A DNA stretch of 11,428 bases. Origin: Nitrospinota bacterium. GTDB lineage: Bacteria > Nitrospinota > Nitrospinia > UBA9942 > JAHJSF01. A program made the translations under genes and the position numbers. The stretch covers positions 1 through 11,428 of the forward strand of contig JAHJSF010000099.1 in NCBI GenBank assembly GCA_018830405.1, given 5' to 3'. The notes beneath the pieces were generated by a model. It saw nothing but the letters and a program-made list of their open reading frames with translations, was not told the DNA's origin and ran no database searches. Positions 1 through 10,849 of this stretch are shown piece by piece; the stretch's first letter is position 1, and each line of letters starts with the position of its first letter.

Positions 1-387
1 AGCCTCGGCAATCTGTTCGTTGGAAATATCCAATGTACCGTCATTCTTCAGTGCTGCCAGGAGTGATGCAGTAGCAATGAGGCCATGTTCACACCCCAAA
101 AACGGTATCTTAGGATGAGCCATGAGTAGCTCGGCTATTGATAAGGAATCTTTCTCATCCGTGGTAAAAGCGATATCTTTGACGAGATCAAACGCACCTT
201 TGCCATGACATTCGTCGCAGACATAATGTTCCTTAGGACAGCGTACATACCCCGTCTCTTCCTTACCGCAGTAGTTACAGACAACACTGACCGCAGTTTC
301 TAAATACTCTAACCGAGTACCACAAACCATGCAGTTCTCTGTTTTTTTCTCTTCTTCTTTAGGCTTACAGCAACATTCTTTATTCAT
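1..387 (-). CDS. DUF5714-like cysteine-rich protein, N-terminal 129 residues (3' partial)
   Basis: The minus-strand frame opens with ATG at 387-385 behind a strong AGGAGG Shine-Dalgarno at 7-nt spacing, and stays open to the window edge for 129 residues. Cysteines are abundant: C5-C7, then CxxC pairs at 19/22, 37/40 and 57/60, plus C50 and C99. A 'HYVCDECH' stretch lies at 54-61 and 'GCEHG' at 98-102. The paired cysteines suggest a zinc ribbon or other metal site. The spacing and the later His/Leu-rich segment resemble DUF5714 proteins, a family without an assigned function. The gene is divergent from the integron integrase and starts 85 bp past an attI-like core, so it could be the first gene cassette; that is inference. 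The C-terminal part is outside the window, so neither full length nor the presence of an attC can be judged. Confidence 0.65.
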   Translation of the reverse strand, partial: MNKECCCKPKEEEKKTENCMVCGTRLEYLETAVSVVCNYCGKEETGYVRCPKEHYVCDECHGKGAFDLVKDIAFTTDEKDSLSIAELLMAHPKIPFLGCEHGLIATASLLAALKNDGTLDISNEQIAEA

Positions 388-471
388 GCTAATACCTCCT
401 CAATTTTTATCTTCAAGACTCAATCGCTTATTTCATCTATCCGAACTATTTCAGATATATTTTTTATCGAA

Positions 472-488
472 GCCTAACAGTGTTAATA
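472..488 (-). other. Putative integron attI simple site (GTTAGGC core)
   Basis: Read on the minus strand, the sequence is an AAC-ending L-like site (TATTAAC, 488-482), three bases, then GTTAGGC (478-472). GTTAGGC is the classical core-site heptamer at which IntI cuts between G and TTAGGC. The AAC-N3-GTTAGGC arrangement resembles the attI1 crossover region as known from class 1 integrons. The site points away from intI and towards the DUF5714-like gene, the direction in which cassettes are inserted. The L half matches the RYYYAAC consensus only partly, and a single heptamer can occur by chance. Confidence 0.45.
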
Positions 489-537
489 GATGGAAACATT
501 TTCCATCATATCCGAGTATATATATGGAAAATGTTTC
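489..537. repeat. Nested inverted repeats upstream of intI
   Basis: A perfect 14-bp inverted repeat pairs GAAACATTTTCCAT (493-506) with ATGGAAAATGTTTC (524-537) across 17 nt. Its left arm lies within a second palindrome, GATGGAAA-CAT-TTTCCATC (489-507). The two folds are mutually exclusive. Possible roles are integrase accessory binding, a repressor operator for one or both divergent genes, or a structured single-stranded site. Nothing in the sequence decides among these. Confidence 0.6.
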
Positions 538-624
538 TACTTATTTCCGTATTAAAGATGTTTTGCGGAATATTTAGTTTGATTCTTTAATTGTTGTGGT
601 GTGGTCTCTAATTTTCTTTTTTAA

Positions 625-632
625 ATTATAAT
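625..632. promoter_or_regulatory. Symmetric -10-like box ATTATAAT, possibly bidirectional
   Basis: ATTATAAT is its own reverse complement and gives TATAAT on both strands (627-632 plus, 630-625 minus). On the plus strand it lies 11 nt before the intI ATG, so an intI transcript would have a very short leader. On the minus strand it points at the attI-like site and the DUF5714-like gene, where a cassette promoter is expected. No good -35 element accompanies it in either direction, and the region is AT-rich. Confidence 0.3.
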
Positions 633-643
633 ATGGGAAATAT

Positions 644-1636
644 ATGGAAAGCAAGGCTAAATTCAGACCTAATCCTGAGTACCGTTTGATGGATCAAGTC
701 CACGAGGTTTTACGATATCATCATTATGCGTATAGTACCGAACAGTCGTATGCTTCTTGGATATTGCAGTATCTAAAATTTTATGGAGGTAAAACCCACC
801 CGAAAGATATGGGTAAGGCGGAGCTTGAGAAGTTTTTGAGCTACCTTGCGGAACAGAAACATGTTGCAGTGGCAACTCAGAAGCAGGCGTTTAATGCGCT
901 TATTTTTTTATACAAGAAAGTTCTTGATATCGATTTAGGAAATGAAATAGCCCCAACACGCTCCAAACGCAGGATAAACCTACCAACAGTATTAACTAAG
1001 AGTGAGGTTTCTCGATTGCTTAATAATATGCATGGGAAACATGCTCTTATGGCAAGATTGCTTTATGGTGGTGGTTTGAGATTGATGGAGTGTGTTCGTT
1101 TGCGTGTGAAGGATGTTGATTTTGGGCAGGGAAAGATTTTTATACGAGATGCCAAGGGGAATAAAGATCGCATGGTAATTTTGCCGGAATCTATACATGC
1201 CTCTTTGAAAAAACAGATTGATTCTGTTGTTGAACTGCATGCTGAGGATGTAAAAGAAGGCTTTGGAGATGTTTATATAGCTATTTCCCTTTCTCGTAAA
1301 TATCTTAATGCTTCTAAAGAGATTGCCTGGCAATACGTTTTCCCCGCCAAGAGGCGCTCTGTTGACCCTAGGTCGGGGAAGGTAAGGCGTCATCATGTTA
1401 TGGAGTCCGGTTTGCAGAAGGCGGTCAAGGTTGCTCTAAATAATGCCAAAATATATAAGAAAGCCGGATGTCATACATTGCGTCATAGTTTTGCTACTCA
1501 TTTACTTGAAGATGGGGCTAATATTAGGATTGTACAAAAACTTATGGGGCATGCTGACGTAAAGACTACAGAAATTTATACCCATGTTATGAGAAAGGAT
1601 ATCGATTCTGTTAAAAGTCCTCTCGATAATCTATAA
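644..1636 (+). CDS. intI: Integron integrase (IntI-type tyrosine recombinase)
   Basis: The 330-residue product is a tyrosine recombinase with a SAM-like core-binding domain (about 15-95) and a catalytic domain (about 115-325). The visible catalytic set is R146, K171, H277, R280, H303 and nucleophile Y312, the same residue numbers known for IntI1. The insertion that separates integron integrases from XerC/D and phage integrases is present at about 210-252, including '[11 protein letters not shown]' and '[11 protein letters not shown]'. IntI enzymes recombine attI with attC sites of gene cassettes, acting on folded single-stranded attC. A weak GGGAA lies before the ATG. The gene is intact. It is divergent from the DUF5714-like gene and convergent with mscS. 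No clear attC was found in the window, so the enzyme may serve an array to the left or be a cassette-poor relic. Confidence 0.93.
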
Positions 1637-1669: not shown

Positions 1670-1700
1670 GGGAGAGATTAGTTTCTTGTTTTAATCTCCC
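1670..1700. other. Imperfect hairpin between converging intI and mscS
   Basis: GGGAGAGATTA (1670-1680) pairs with TAATCTCCC (1692-1700) except for a 2-nt bulge. It lies between two converging genes and could limit transcription in both directions, but neither strand has a clear U-run after the stem. Its left arm starts outside the 59-bp repeat and its right arm is inside it. Confidence 0.35.
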
Positions 1701-1734
1701 TTATATACTAAGATTGTTAACCTATCTGTTTTTG
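1676..1734. repeat. 59-bp direct repeat, copy A
   Basis: These 59 bp recur at 2930-2988 in the same orientation with one difference (C1722 versus T2976). This copy starts 39 bp after the intI stop codon and ends 11 bp before the mscS stop codon. The 1,254-bp repeat-to-repeat distance corresponds to one repeat plus a segment that carries only mscS. Confidence 0.95.
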
Positions 1735-1745
1735 CCTGTTTTTGT

Positions 1746-2813
1746 TCATGATTGATTTTCCGGGGATTTCTCTACATATAGTGTTTGAGTCGGATAGGCG
1801 AATTCGATCCCTCGTTTTTCAAACTCTTCCCCGATCGCAAAATTGATCTCCTGCTGAATGTCCATGTATTTGTTATAGTCACTGCTCAAAACATAGTAGA
1901 CGACTTCGAAATCAAGGCTGAAGTCTCCGTACGAGGAAAAATGGGCGCGGTCAAATGCCGTGTCCCTGATATTTGCTATAATATCCTTTATTATTCCCGG
2001 AATTTCCTTTAGCTGTCCGGACGTTGTTTGATAAATCATGCCGAGTTTGAAAACAACACGGCGTTTTTCCATCCTCTTGTAGTTCCGGATGCGGGAATTC
2101 GTCAGATCGGTGTTCGAAAATACCAGCTGTTCCCCGCTCAGACTGCGCACCTTTGTGGTTTTTATGCCGATATGCTCAATTGTTCCAAGAAAATCACCGA
2201 CAATAATGAAATCGCCCAGTTCAAACGGCTTGTCGAAAAATATGACGAAGTAGCTGAACAGATCCCCCAGTATTGTCTGTGCGGCCAGCGCTACGGCTAT
2301 CCCGCCGATTCCCAGACCTGCAACAATAGTTGAAATTTTAAAGCCCAGATTGTCGAGAAGAAACGTAATGCCTATGCCCCAGACTATAACTTTGATTATA
2401 GGTATAATTCCCTTGAGGCTCTGCTGCCTGACAGGGTCGACTTCCTTTTTTATCCAGTATGTCTGAAGTGAGTAATTAATGAGCTCCATTATGAAGCGCA
2501 AACTGAAATAAGTCAGGACCACCAGACCCGATATGTCCAGTGTTCTTATCATCGAAGGGCTCAGCGTCAGTGTTTTGATAGCAAGATAGAACAGGCCGAA
2601 ATAAAGCAGCGGGACCAGTTTTTTCTCAATGATCCGGATCAGGAAATCGTCTATTGTCGTGGAGGTCTTCTTCGACCATGACTTCAGCCTGTGCAAAAAA
2701 ATGCTTTTAATGATCTTTATTGTGAGAATGCCCGCGAGAAAGACCGCAATGGAAATAAGATAATCCATCACCCGGTTCTGAAAAACAGTCTGCTGCAGGA
2801 TTTCAATATCCAT
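1746..2813 (-). CDS. MscS-family small-conductance mechanosensitive channel
   Basis: This inner-membrane channel would release solutes during hypo-osmotic shock. With the start chosen here it has 355 residues. Hydrophobic segments lie at about 17-40, 66-84, 94-112 and 135-155. They are followed by the glycine/alanine-rich pore helix at about 160-195 (GLGIGGIAVALAAQ) and the DKPFELGD stretch that opens the beta domain, both hallmarks of MscS. A cytoplasmic alpha/beta domain follows to the end. The ATG at 2813 was chosen because AAGGA precedes it at 6 nt and the N-terminus then fits the family. An in-frame ATG at 2924 would add 37 residues of atypical sequence. The gene lies alone, opposite to its neighbours, between two 59-bp direct repeats, which suggests it was inserted as a unit. 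Confidence 0.88.
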   Translation of the reverse strand: MDIEILQQTVFQNRVMDYLISIAVFLAGILTIKIIKSIFLHRLKSWSKKTSTTIDDFLIRIIEKKLVPLLYFGLFYLAIKTLTLSPSMIRTLDISGLVVLTYFSLRFIMELINYSLQTYWIKKEVDPVRQQSLKGIIPIIKVIVWGIGITFLLDNLGFKISTIVAGLGIGGIAVALAAQTILGDLFSYFVIFFDKPFELGDFIIVGDFLGTIEHIGIKTTKVRSLSGEQLVFSNTDLTNSRIRNYKRMEKRRVVFKLGMIYQTTSGQLKEIPGIIKDIIANIRDTAFDRAHFSSYGDFSLDFEVVYYVLSSDYNKYMDIQQEINFAIGEEFEKRGIEFAYPTQTLYVEKSPENQS

Positions 2814-2929
2814 GACAATTCCTTGATTCTTTGAATTCTTAAGGCATTTCCCGATTATAATCAACTTCTTGTGAGAGAGTATATTATACTCCTCAAACAG
2901 GATACTTCTAAATTGGTTTGCCAATGGTG

Positions 2930-2988
2930 GATTAGTTTCTTGTTTTAATCTCCCTTATATACTAAGATTGTTAACTTATCTGTTTTTG
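2930..2988. repeat. 59-bp direct repeat, copy B
   Basis: This is the second copy of the repeat at 1676-1734, ending 41 bp before the aspS ATG. The left arm of the hairpin seen at copy A is degraded here (GGTGGATTA, 2926-2934), because homology begins inside that arm. A TATACT (2958-2963) inside the repeat could serve as a -10 for aspS, but no good -35 is present at normal spacing. Confidence 0.95.
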
Positions 2989-3029: not shown

Positions 3030-4805
3030 ATGTCCAAATTATTGAAAAGAACGCATAACTGCGGAGAGCTTAGCGCCAAGGATGCCGGCCAAGAGGTTAC
3101 CCTGTGCGGCTGGGTAGATAGGCGCCGTGACCATGGAGGACTAATATTTGTAGACCTTCGTGACAGAGAAGGGATTACCCAGGTTGTCTTTAACCCTGAG
3201 GTTAATAAAGAGGTTCACGCCGAGGCGGAATCTATACGGAACGAGTATGTATTGGCTATTGTTGGGAATGTTTCTCCCCGCCCTGAGGGGACAATTAACG
3301 GGCATCTGAAAACAGGGGAAATTGAGATTGTTGTTTCAAGCCTGGAGATACTCAACAGGGCCGCCCCTCTCCCCTTTGCCATCAATGACAACGAGGAGAT
3401 TTCTGAGTCTTTGAGGTTAAAGTATCGTTATCTCGACCTCAGGCGCTCCGAAATGAGAGATAGGCTTCTCACCCGGAGTAAGGTAGTCAAGGCGGTTCGT
3501 GACTTTCTAGACGGCGAAGGGGTGATAGAGGTTGAAACCCCTTATCTAACCAAGAGCACCCCTGAAGGGGCGCGAGACTACCTTGTCCCCAGCCGTATAA
3601 ATGTCGGGCATTTTTATGCCCTTCCGCAGTCTCCCCAGCTTTTTAAGCAGATATTGATGATTGCCGGTTATGAGAAATATTATCAGATAGCCAAGTGTTT
3701 CCGAGATGAGGATCTGAGGGCCGATAGACAGCCGGAGTTTACTCAGATAGATATGGAGTTTTCCTTTGTTGACAGCAATGACGTTATGTCGCTTATTGAG
3801 GGGATGATGTGTCAGGTCTTCGACAAGGTTATGGGGAAGAGGCTTGAGGCCCCATTTCAAATTATCCCCTACCATGAGGCGATGGATAGGTATGGGTCTG
3901 ATAAACCTGACCTCAGGTTTGGGATGGAGCTGAAGGATATTTCCTCCATTGCCGCCTCATCCGACTTTAAGGTCTTCGCCGAGACGATTAAAAATGGGGG
4001 AGAGGTCAGGGGAATAAATGCCAAGGGGTGTTCCGGCTACTCAAGGAAGGATGTAGACCTTCTCATGGAGGAGGCCAAGATATTCGGGGCCAAGGGGCTG
4101 GCCTGGTTTAAGATTACCGAAACGGGAATTGAGTCACCCATAGCCAAGTTCTTCTCCCCCGAACAGCTTGAGGCCATAAAGACAAAACTTGAAGGGGAGG
4201 GGGGGGATCTACTTCTCTTTGTGGCCGATAGTAGAAAGGTTGTCTTAGACTCATTGGCCCACCTGAGAAATCTCTTTGGTGAGAGACTGGGGATGATAGA
4301 TGAGAAAAAATATGCCTTTGCTTGGATAACAGAATTCCCTTTGTTGGAGTGGGATGATCAGGAGAATAGGTGGTTTGCCATGCATCACCCCTTTACCTCT
4401 CCTGTGGATGAGGATATCTCCCTATTCGATACCGATCCGGGGAAGATGAGAACCCACGCCTACGACCTTGTTCTAAACGGTTCTGAGATTGGTGGGGGGA
4501 GTATCAGGATACATAAGAAAGAGATTCAGGAGAAGATGTTTAGGGTCCTCGGAATAGGGGAGGATGAGGCCAGAGAGAAGTTTGGCTTCTTCATAGATGC
4601 CCTCGACTACGGAACCCCACCGCACGGCGGAATAGCTATCGGACTCGACAGGTTTATGGCCATGATTACCGGGTCTAAATCTATACGTGATGTTATCGCC
4701 TTCCCGAAGACTCAGAAGGGGGTCTGTCTTATGACTGAGGCTCCTTCAACCGTTGATAAGAAACAGCTTAAAGAGCTCGGTATCGTTAAGATAGAACAGA
4801 AATAG
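3030..4805 (+). CDS. aspS: Aspartate--tRNA ligase, predicted non-discriminating type
   Basis: This class IIb synthetase charges tRNA with aspartate in the cytoplasm. The 591 residues follow the bacterial layout: N-terminal OB-fold anticodon-binding domain (about 1-110), catalytic core, an inserted GAD domain (about 285-415), and the end of the core. Motif 2 begins at 'FRDEDLRAD' (224-232), and motif 3 'GIAIGLDR' (534-541) ends in the conserved Arg541. '[12 protein letters not shown]' and 'QSPQLFKQ' are also intact. His35 and Gly87 align with E. coli Leu30 and Lys82. His and Gly at these sites are reported for the non-discriminating enzyme of Pseudomonas aeruginosa, so it probably also charges tRNA-Asn for GatCAB. 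The ATG at 3030 fits the family N-terminus. A TTG at 3024 is in frame and better placed for the weak AGAAG at 3012-3016. It heads an aspS-gltX-uppP operon. Confidence 0.95.
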
Positions 4806-9878: not shown

Positions 9879-10630
9879 ATAGAGCTAAAATAGAAGATAT
9901 TGTCCGTAAGATATATGAGCATGAGCTTGATAGTGAAGAGGGGATTAAACTCCTTTCTCATCTTCCCTACGAGGATATCGGCTTTGCTACCATAGACCAT
10001 CATCGGGAGCTTAGGCAAGGTTTTCCTGAGGTTATCTATTGCGAAGGTAAGTCTGATAGGCAGGTTGTTGAGATAGTTGGGAAGATGCTGGAGAGAGGTT
10101 CTGATATCTTGGCCACACGCGCTTCGGAAGAACTCTTTGCCAAGGTCAAAGATTCCTATCCGGAGGCTGAATATAATATAGATGGAAGGGTTATCTATAT
10201 CCGTAGAGGGAAAAAGGAACTTGTCGGTAATATACTGGTGGCCACCGCCGGAACATCAGATATCCCCGTGGCCGAAGAGGCCGCTATTACTGCCGAAGTG
10301 ATGGGGAGTAAAATAAACAGGCTCTATGATGTTGGGGTGGCCGGAATACATCGTCTCTTGGGGCAGAAAGAGGCCATTTATGAGGCCAATATAATTATTG
10401 TTGCCGCGGGAATGGATGGTGCCTTGGCGAGTGTAATAGGCGGATTGGCCGATAAACCTGTCATTGCCGTTCCGACCAGTGTTGGCTATGGGGCAAGCTT
10501 TCAGGGGCTTTCGGCTCTATTGGCCATGTTAAACTCTTGCGCCCCCGGGGTAGCGGTGATGAATATAGACAACGGTTTCGGGGCGGGGTGTTTCGCCCAC
10601 AGGGTAAACCTTTTGTGCAGAGCGCCATAA
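9875..10630 (+). CDS. larB: LarB, nickel-pincer cofactor biosynthesis (P2CMN synthase)
   Basis: LarB carboxylates and hydrolyses nicotinic acid adenine dinucleotide to make pyridinium-3,5-biscarboxylic acid mononucleotide, the first step to the nickel-pincer cofactor of lactate racemase-type enzymes. The 251-residue length is normal. The C-terminal PurE-like domain (about 115-251) has 'VATAGTSDIPVAEEAA', 'AAGMDGALASVIGGL', 'VPTSVGYGASF' and 'NIDNGFGAGCFAHR'. Cys222 in 'SCAPG' corresponds to the cysteine (Cys221 in Lactobacillus plantarum) known to form a covalent adduct with substrate. The N-terminal helical part carries 'DHHRELRQGFPEVIYCEGKS'. The ATGA overlap with thiDN implies co-translation. 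No larA, larC or larE lies in the window. Confidence 0.92.
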   Translation: MNRAKIEDIVRKIYEHELDSEEGIKLLSHLPYEDIGFATIDHHRELRQGFPEVIYCEGKSDRQVVEIVGKMLERGSDILATRASEELFAKVKDSYPEAEYNIDGRVIYIRRGKKELVGNILVATAGTSDIPVAEEAAITAEVMGSKINRLYDVGVAGIHRLLGQKEAIYEANIIIVAAGMDGALASVIGGLADKPVIAVPTSVGYGASFQGLSALLAMLNSCAPGVAVMNIDNGFGAGCFAHRVNLLCRAP

Positions 10631-10631
10631 T

Positions 10632-10676
10632 TTCTTTTTAACCCCTTTCTTGTTCGGGCAAGAAAGGGGGAAAGAA
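10632..10676. repeat. Long hairpin after larB
   Basis: CCCCTTTCTTG (10642-10652) pairs perfectly with CAAGAAAGGGG (10659-10669) around a 6-nt TTCGGG loop. An outer TTCTTT/AAAGAA pair (10632-10637/10671-10676) extends the stem past a small internal loop. It starts one base after the larB stop and may stop transcription or protect the 3' end, though no U-run follows on the plus strand. Confidence 0.6.
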
Positions 10677-10714
10677 CCCGCCGCCTGCTCATTTTTTTAA
10701 CGGCTTGGAATTAC

Positions 10715-10777
10715 GGTTGCTTGAGGAGCCTAAAAAACTCGCTTCGCTCAGACAGTTTTAGGCTTATTTCCTCAACC
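10715..10777. repeat. Interrupted palindrome with CTCGCTTCGCTC core
   Basis: GCCTAAAAAACT (10728-10739) pairs with AGTTTTAGGC (10754-10763), apart from two extra A residues in the left arm. Partial outer pairing of GGTTG/AGGA with TCCT/CAACC extends the symmetry to 10715-10777. It looks like the second half of a repeat element that began at 10632. Confidence 0.5.
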
Positions 10778-10849
10778 AACCTACTCCAATCCTAAAAATG
10801 AGATGGCGGGAATAATCATTTGACCCTACCAGATAAAAGCGATACGATT

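Follow-up and report, generated by a model that had tools for sequence, protein, structure and literature searches.

Is a gene that lies between two near-identical direct repeats beside an integron integrase a gene cassette, or a foreign gene that arrived in a more ordinary way? The question is raised by an mscS gene on an 11,428-bp contig (C76), the whole of which was analysed and is called the window here. It belongs to a 1.42-Mb draft genome (G000) that is in 185 contigs and 87% complete. An earlier note on this DNA had seen in the arrangement the geometry of a cassette, or of attL and attR around an inserted circle. Our best reading is that of a bracketed, probably acquired and losable gene, which is not an integron product and reflects the ordinary insertion of a foreign gene. 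The features on which the argument turns are collected in Table 1.

Table 1. Features of the window around the bracketed mscS gene.
Feature	Position	Strand	Basis or remark
Putative MbdU-like metal-binding fragment ORF	1..387	-	runs off contig; similarity far below family cut-off
Putative attI	~470..560	-	GTTAGGC core (~471-477) and GGAAA/TTTCC dyad; conserved 5' of intI in relatives
intI, integron integrase (tyrosine recombinase)	644..1636	+	TIGR02249
59-bp direct repeat, copy 1	1676..1734	+	39 bp past intI stop; 11 bp beyond mscS stop
mscS, small-conductance mechanosensitive channel, 355 aa	1746..2813	-	ORF and Pfam
Putative sigma-70-like promoter of mscS, TTTAGA-18-TATAAT	2883..2912	-	consensus match 10/12
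59-bp direct repeat, copy 2	2930..2988	+	35-41 bp ahead of aspS start
aspS, core gene	3030..4805	+	gltX follows

The starting observation, near-perfect 59-bp direct repeats around a segment with mscS only, was borne out. The two copies agree at 58 of 59 bases (98%), with a single C/T difference and a start-to-start spacing of 1254 bp, and the longest exact word common to both is 46 bp, against ~13 bp expected by chance for the length. The segment between them (1735-2929; 1,195 bp) holds mscS as its sole gene. The suggestion that the event was recent is likewise supported by the 98% identity of the copies, and outside the 59 bp their flanks are alike at chance level only. We carried out the proposed search for the 59-mer in the genome and in 99 other genomes, mostly of the same class: there are two copies in the genome, both at the mscS locus, and none in the other 99. 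The next-best genome matches cover 35 bp at 80%, or no more than 17 bp, and no exact match was present in the genome_contigs and viral_contigs collections. With only two genome copies and none in the 99 genomes, a common dispersed sequence is ruled out.

Local and dispersed repeats were surveyed in ~64% of the genome (0.9 Mb). Six non-dispersed local direct-repeat pairs (at least 40 bp, at least 85%, within 6 kb) were found in the 0.9 Mb sampled, and the pair that brackets mscS is the most alike of the six. On contig C72, a direct-repeat pair of 80 bp (L190:579-656 and L190:1894-1973; 87.5%, spacing 1315 bp) brackets two small ORFs of 80 and 243 aa and has no further copies in the sampled genome; it is possibly a parallel to the mscS pair. 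The genome also carries dispersed repeats, with 2,581 between-contig matches in the 0.9 Mb sampled of this small genome. One of them, a strongly folding intergenic element of ~175 bp, lies in the window at 10627-10814 (DNA fold -43 kcal/mol, z -7.2). It has 36 genome matches at 74-100%, some of them partial, with no match in 19 relatives or in Rfam, and it represents a lineage-specific dispersed repeat family, MITE-like or structured-RNA-like. At least three further families, of ~165 bp, 118 bp and a 40-bp core, have many copies each (examples are L119:7950-8118, L119:9549-9666 and L119:3671-3710). Rfam gave no match in the window or the bracketed segment, and the locus has no tRNA.

The mscS product is a full MscS with three Pfam domains. 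Its likely start is the ATG at 2813, chosen for the ATG and an upstream AAGGAA, and a longer TTG-start ORF reaching 2924 is possible. The stop codon at 1746-1748 confirms the order noted earlier on the minus strand, that is repeat, gene, then a repeat 11 bp past the stop. A promoter-like site lies 18 bp inside the bracketed segment; the scan behind it scores consensus match only and found 4 sites against 3.3 expected in shuffles, which makes it weak evidence alone. Repeat copy 2 occupies the expected place of the aspS promoter and contains TATACT, and the 35-bp match to the 59-mer, on contig C168, precedes an rnr-like gene by ~70-110 bp. The 59-bp sequence may thus be promoter-like.

The tyrosine recombinase gene noticed next to the repeats is indeed a true integron integrase, scoring 419 bits against TIGR02249 (cut-off 265). 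The attI-like sequence 5' of intI is also found in loci labelled Desulfobacteraceae, Smithella, Desulfocapsa and Zetaproteobacteria and in the same-class genome G007, and a TAACAGTG-like core and the dyad are largely conserved among the attI-like regions of these intI relatives. The GGAAA/TTTCC dyad region (window 470-643; L085, L104, L109, L051, L105) spans several bacterial groups and may represent an attI architecture that this intI clade has in common. Both attC-like repeats and ORFs on the opposite strand stand 5' of intI in L077, from a Desulfocapsa relative; since this layout is canonical, the array of the window's integron should run leftwards from ~470, and the MbdU-like ORF (387-1) would probably be its first cassette. 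One Desulfobacteraceae-labelled MAG, CSMAG_1163, carries two intI fragments (L083 and L085) that are 82-85% identical to the window's intI; the frame in L083 is only 110 aa long and apparently broken.

Where mscS came from is indicated by its relatives. Among the searched genomes the best match comes from G009, which belongs to another family: it is a C-terminal fragment, lying at the end of a contig, with 78% identity over 55 aa, whereas the aspS protein of G009 is 62% identical to that of the window and the MscS proteins of same-order genomes are only 25-28% identical. This comparison, whose mscS side is the one 55-aa contig-end fragment, suggests lateral acquisition of mscS. The nearest intI among the searched genomes (78%) belongs to the same genus as the mscS relative (g8), and the protein comparisons suggest that mscS and intI were both acquired laterally. 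Among the relatives, intI and mscS were never found at one locus, and the relatives' loci examined had no intI-aspS adjacency; several relatives have aspS next to gltX, with a gene other than mscS ahead of aspS. Plasmids matched the mscS coding sequence only, at ~64%, and phages gave no match. Around eight other mscS relatives there are no flanking repeats of the bracketing kind, and therefore nothing shows the mscS unit to be mobile as such. In G009, a long hairpin, imperfectly paired and ending in CCTAACC/GGTTAGG (L049:245-365, contig C149), lies 3' of the mscS-relative fragment. This hairpin is attC-like in look, but its R' box is off; if it were an attC, mscS would be a cassette in G009.

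We consider it very unlikely that the window's mscS is an integron cassette or a circle integrated by IntI, with the 59-bp repeats as attC-like or attI-like sites of the adjacent integrase. A true integron integrase does lie ~40 bp from copy 1, the succession of gene, short gap and repeat on the minus strand is cassette-like, and the closest relatives of intI and mscS among the searched genomes both fall in genus g8 at ~78% identity. The repeat itself, however, contains no RYYYAAC/GTTRRRY pair (R''/R' boxes), folds too weakly to be attC-like (~-1 kcal/mol) and resembles the attI region no more than shuffles do. The conserved attI-like site is 5' of intI whereas mscS is on the 3' side, and an array with mscS would read toward the 3' end of intI. 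Moreover, mscS comes with its own promoter-like site, the repeat with its two genome copies is not common to other cassettes, and neither cassette insertion by IntI nor a reaction on attC would yield two identical 59-bp copies. In G014, the closest searched genome with intI, the 3' side of the integrase gene carries unrelated genes, one for a metallo-beta-lactamase-fold protein and one for a radical SAM protein. A scan for attC boxes across the window and the relatives' loci returned nothing convincing, and we found no direct report of mscS in integrons in the literature. Of the original cassette or attL/attR reading, then, the bracketed and probably acquired gene is retained, and the cassette, like an attL/attR pair made by IntI, is given up for want of attC features and because mscS is on the wrong side. 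That the 59 bp could be an undescribed, non-attC recombination site, at which IntI or another host recombinase inserts and excises single genes 3' of intI, strikes us as extremely unlikely.

A rather unlikely history is one in which mscS and aspS are older divergent neighbours, and the repeats arose by local tandem duplication of mscS and its promoter region with later loss of one mscS, or by template switching. The seat of copy 2 at the aspS promoter place, with its TATACT, and the similar stretch ahead of the rnr-like gene agree with such a history, but the flanks beyond 59 bp show no residual likeness, the history takes two steps, and in the relatives a different gene stands upstream of aspS. 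Nor do we give much credit to an artefact of metagenome assembly or binning that placed mscS in the gap between intI and aspS via the repeat, which we rate as improbable. Although the assembly is fragmented, with 185 contigs and many repeats, the 59-mer has no third copy, the GC content of mscS (44%) is similar to that of its neighbours (40-49%), and the copies have distinct flanks and differ at an internal base; this one-base difference makes a simple contig-overlap artefact unlikely.

We lean, by a modest measure, towards the acquisition of a self-contained mscS transcription unit that was inserted into the short intI-aspS intergenic region, with the repeats marking the event. The ancestral state would have held one 59-bp copy, in the order intI, GGGAGA, 59 bp, TTATTTTCC, aspS. 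An incoming circle or fragment with the identical 59 bp may have integrated via a crossover through them; alternatively, break repair or template switching at insertion may have copied the 59 bp. IntI would not have been responsible. The flank on the intI side would survive at the left junction and the one on the aspS side at the right. A hairpin spans the left edge of copy 1 (GGGAGAgATTA/TAATCTCCC; sequence GGGAGAGATTA...TAATCTCCC) and is absent at copy 2; an equally good fold was reached by 6 of 500 shuffles. Its presence at copy 1 alone fits an ancestor with one copy that had intI to its left. Counting against the insertion, a 59-bp duplication is, to our knowledge, longer than known transposase target duplications, and we know of no donor circle for the mscS unit. 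Deletion between direct repeats, RecA-dependent or by slippage, is established behaviour in bacteria. Recombination or slippage between the two copies would need no dedicated enzyme; it would remove 1,254 bp, mscS among them, and a single copy would stay behind, and in this way mscS could in principle be lost.

If this reading of an inserted mscS unit is right, the locus adds to the cases in which a stress-related gene, here an osmotic safety valve, was probably gained laterally where an integron borders a core operon, in an arrangement from which it could be lost again by simple repeat recombination. It also cautions that closeness to intI is insufficient ground for naming a gene between repeats a cassette; one must also check which side of intI it lies on and what att features it has. 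Among known systems, dif/Xer modules (pdif-flanked genes) likewise place one gene between short recombination-type repeats, but the likeness of the 59-bp repeat to dif is at shuffle level (259-354 of 500 shuffles reach the local score), with the 28-bp XerC/XerD site of E. coli as the sole dif reference. Genomic islands with attL and attR share the direct repeats at both ends of probably acquired DNA, whereas the mscS segment is 1.2 kb long with one gene, no internal integrase and no tRNA, and its repeat is not a known att site. With the integron cassette of the intI/attI/attC system, mscS has in common that it is a single gene near a true intI and that a repeat closely follows its stop; it differs in lying on the wrong side of intI, in a repeat that has neither attC boxes nor an attC fold, in having, as typical cassettes do not, its own promoter-like site, and in being bracketed by two near-identical copies of a sequence that is not common to other cassettes.
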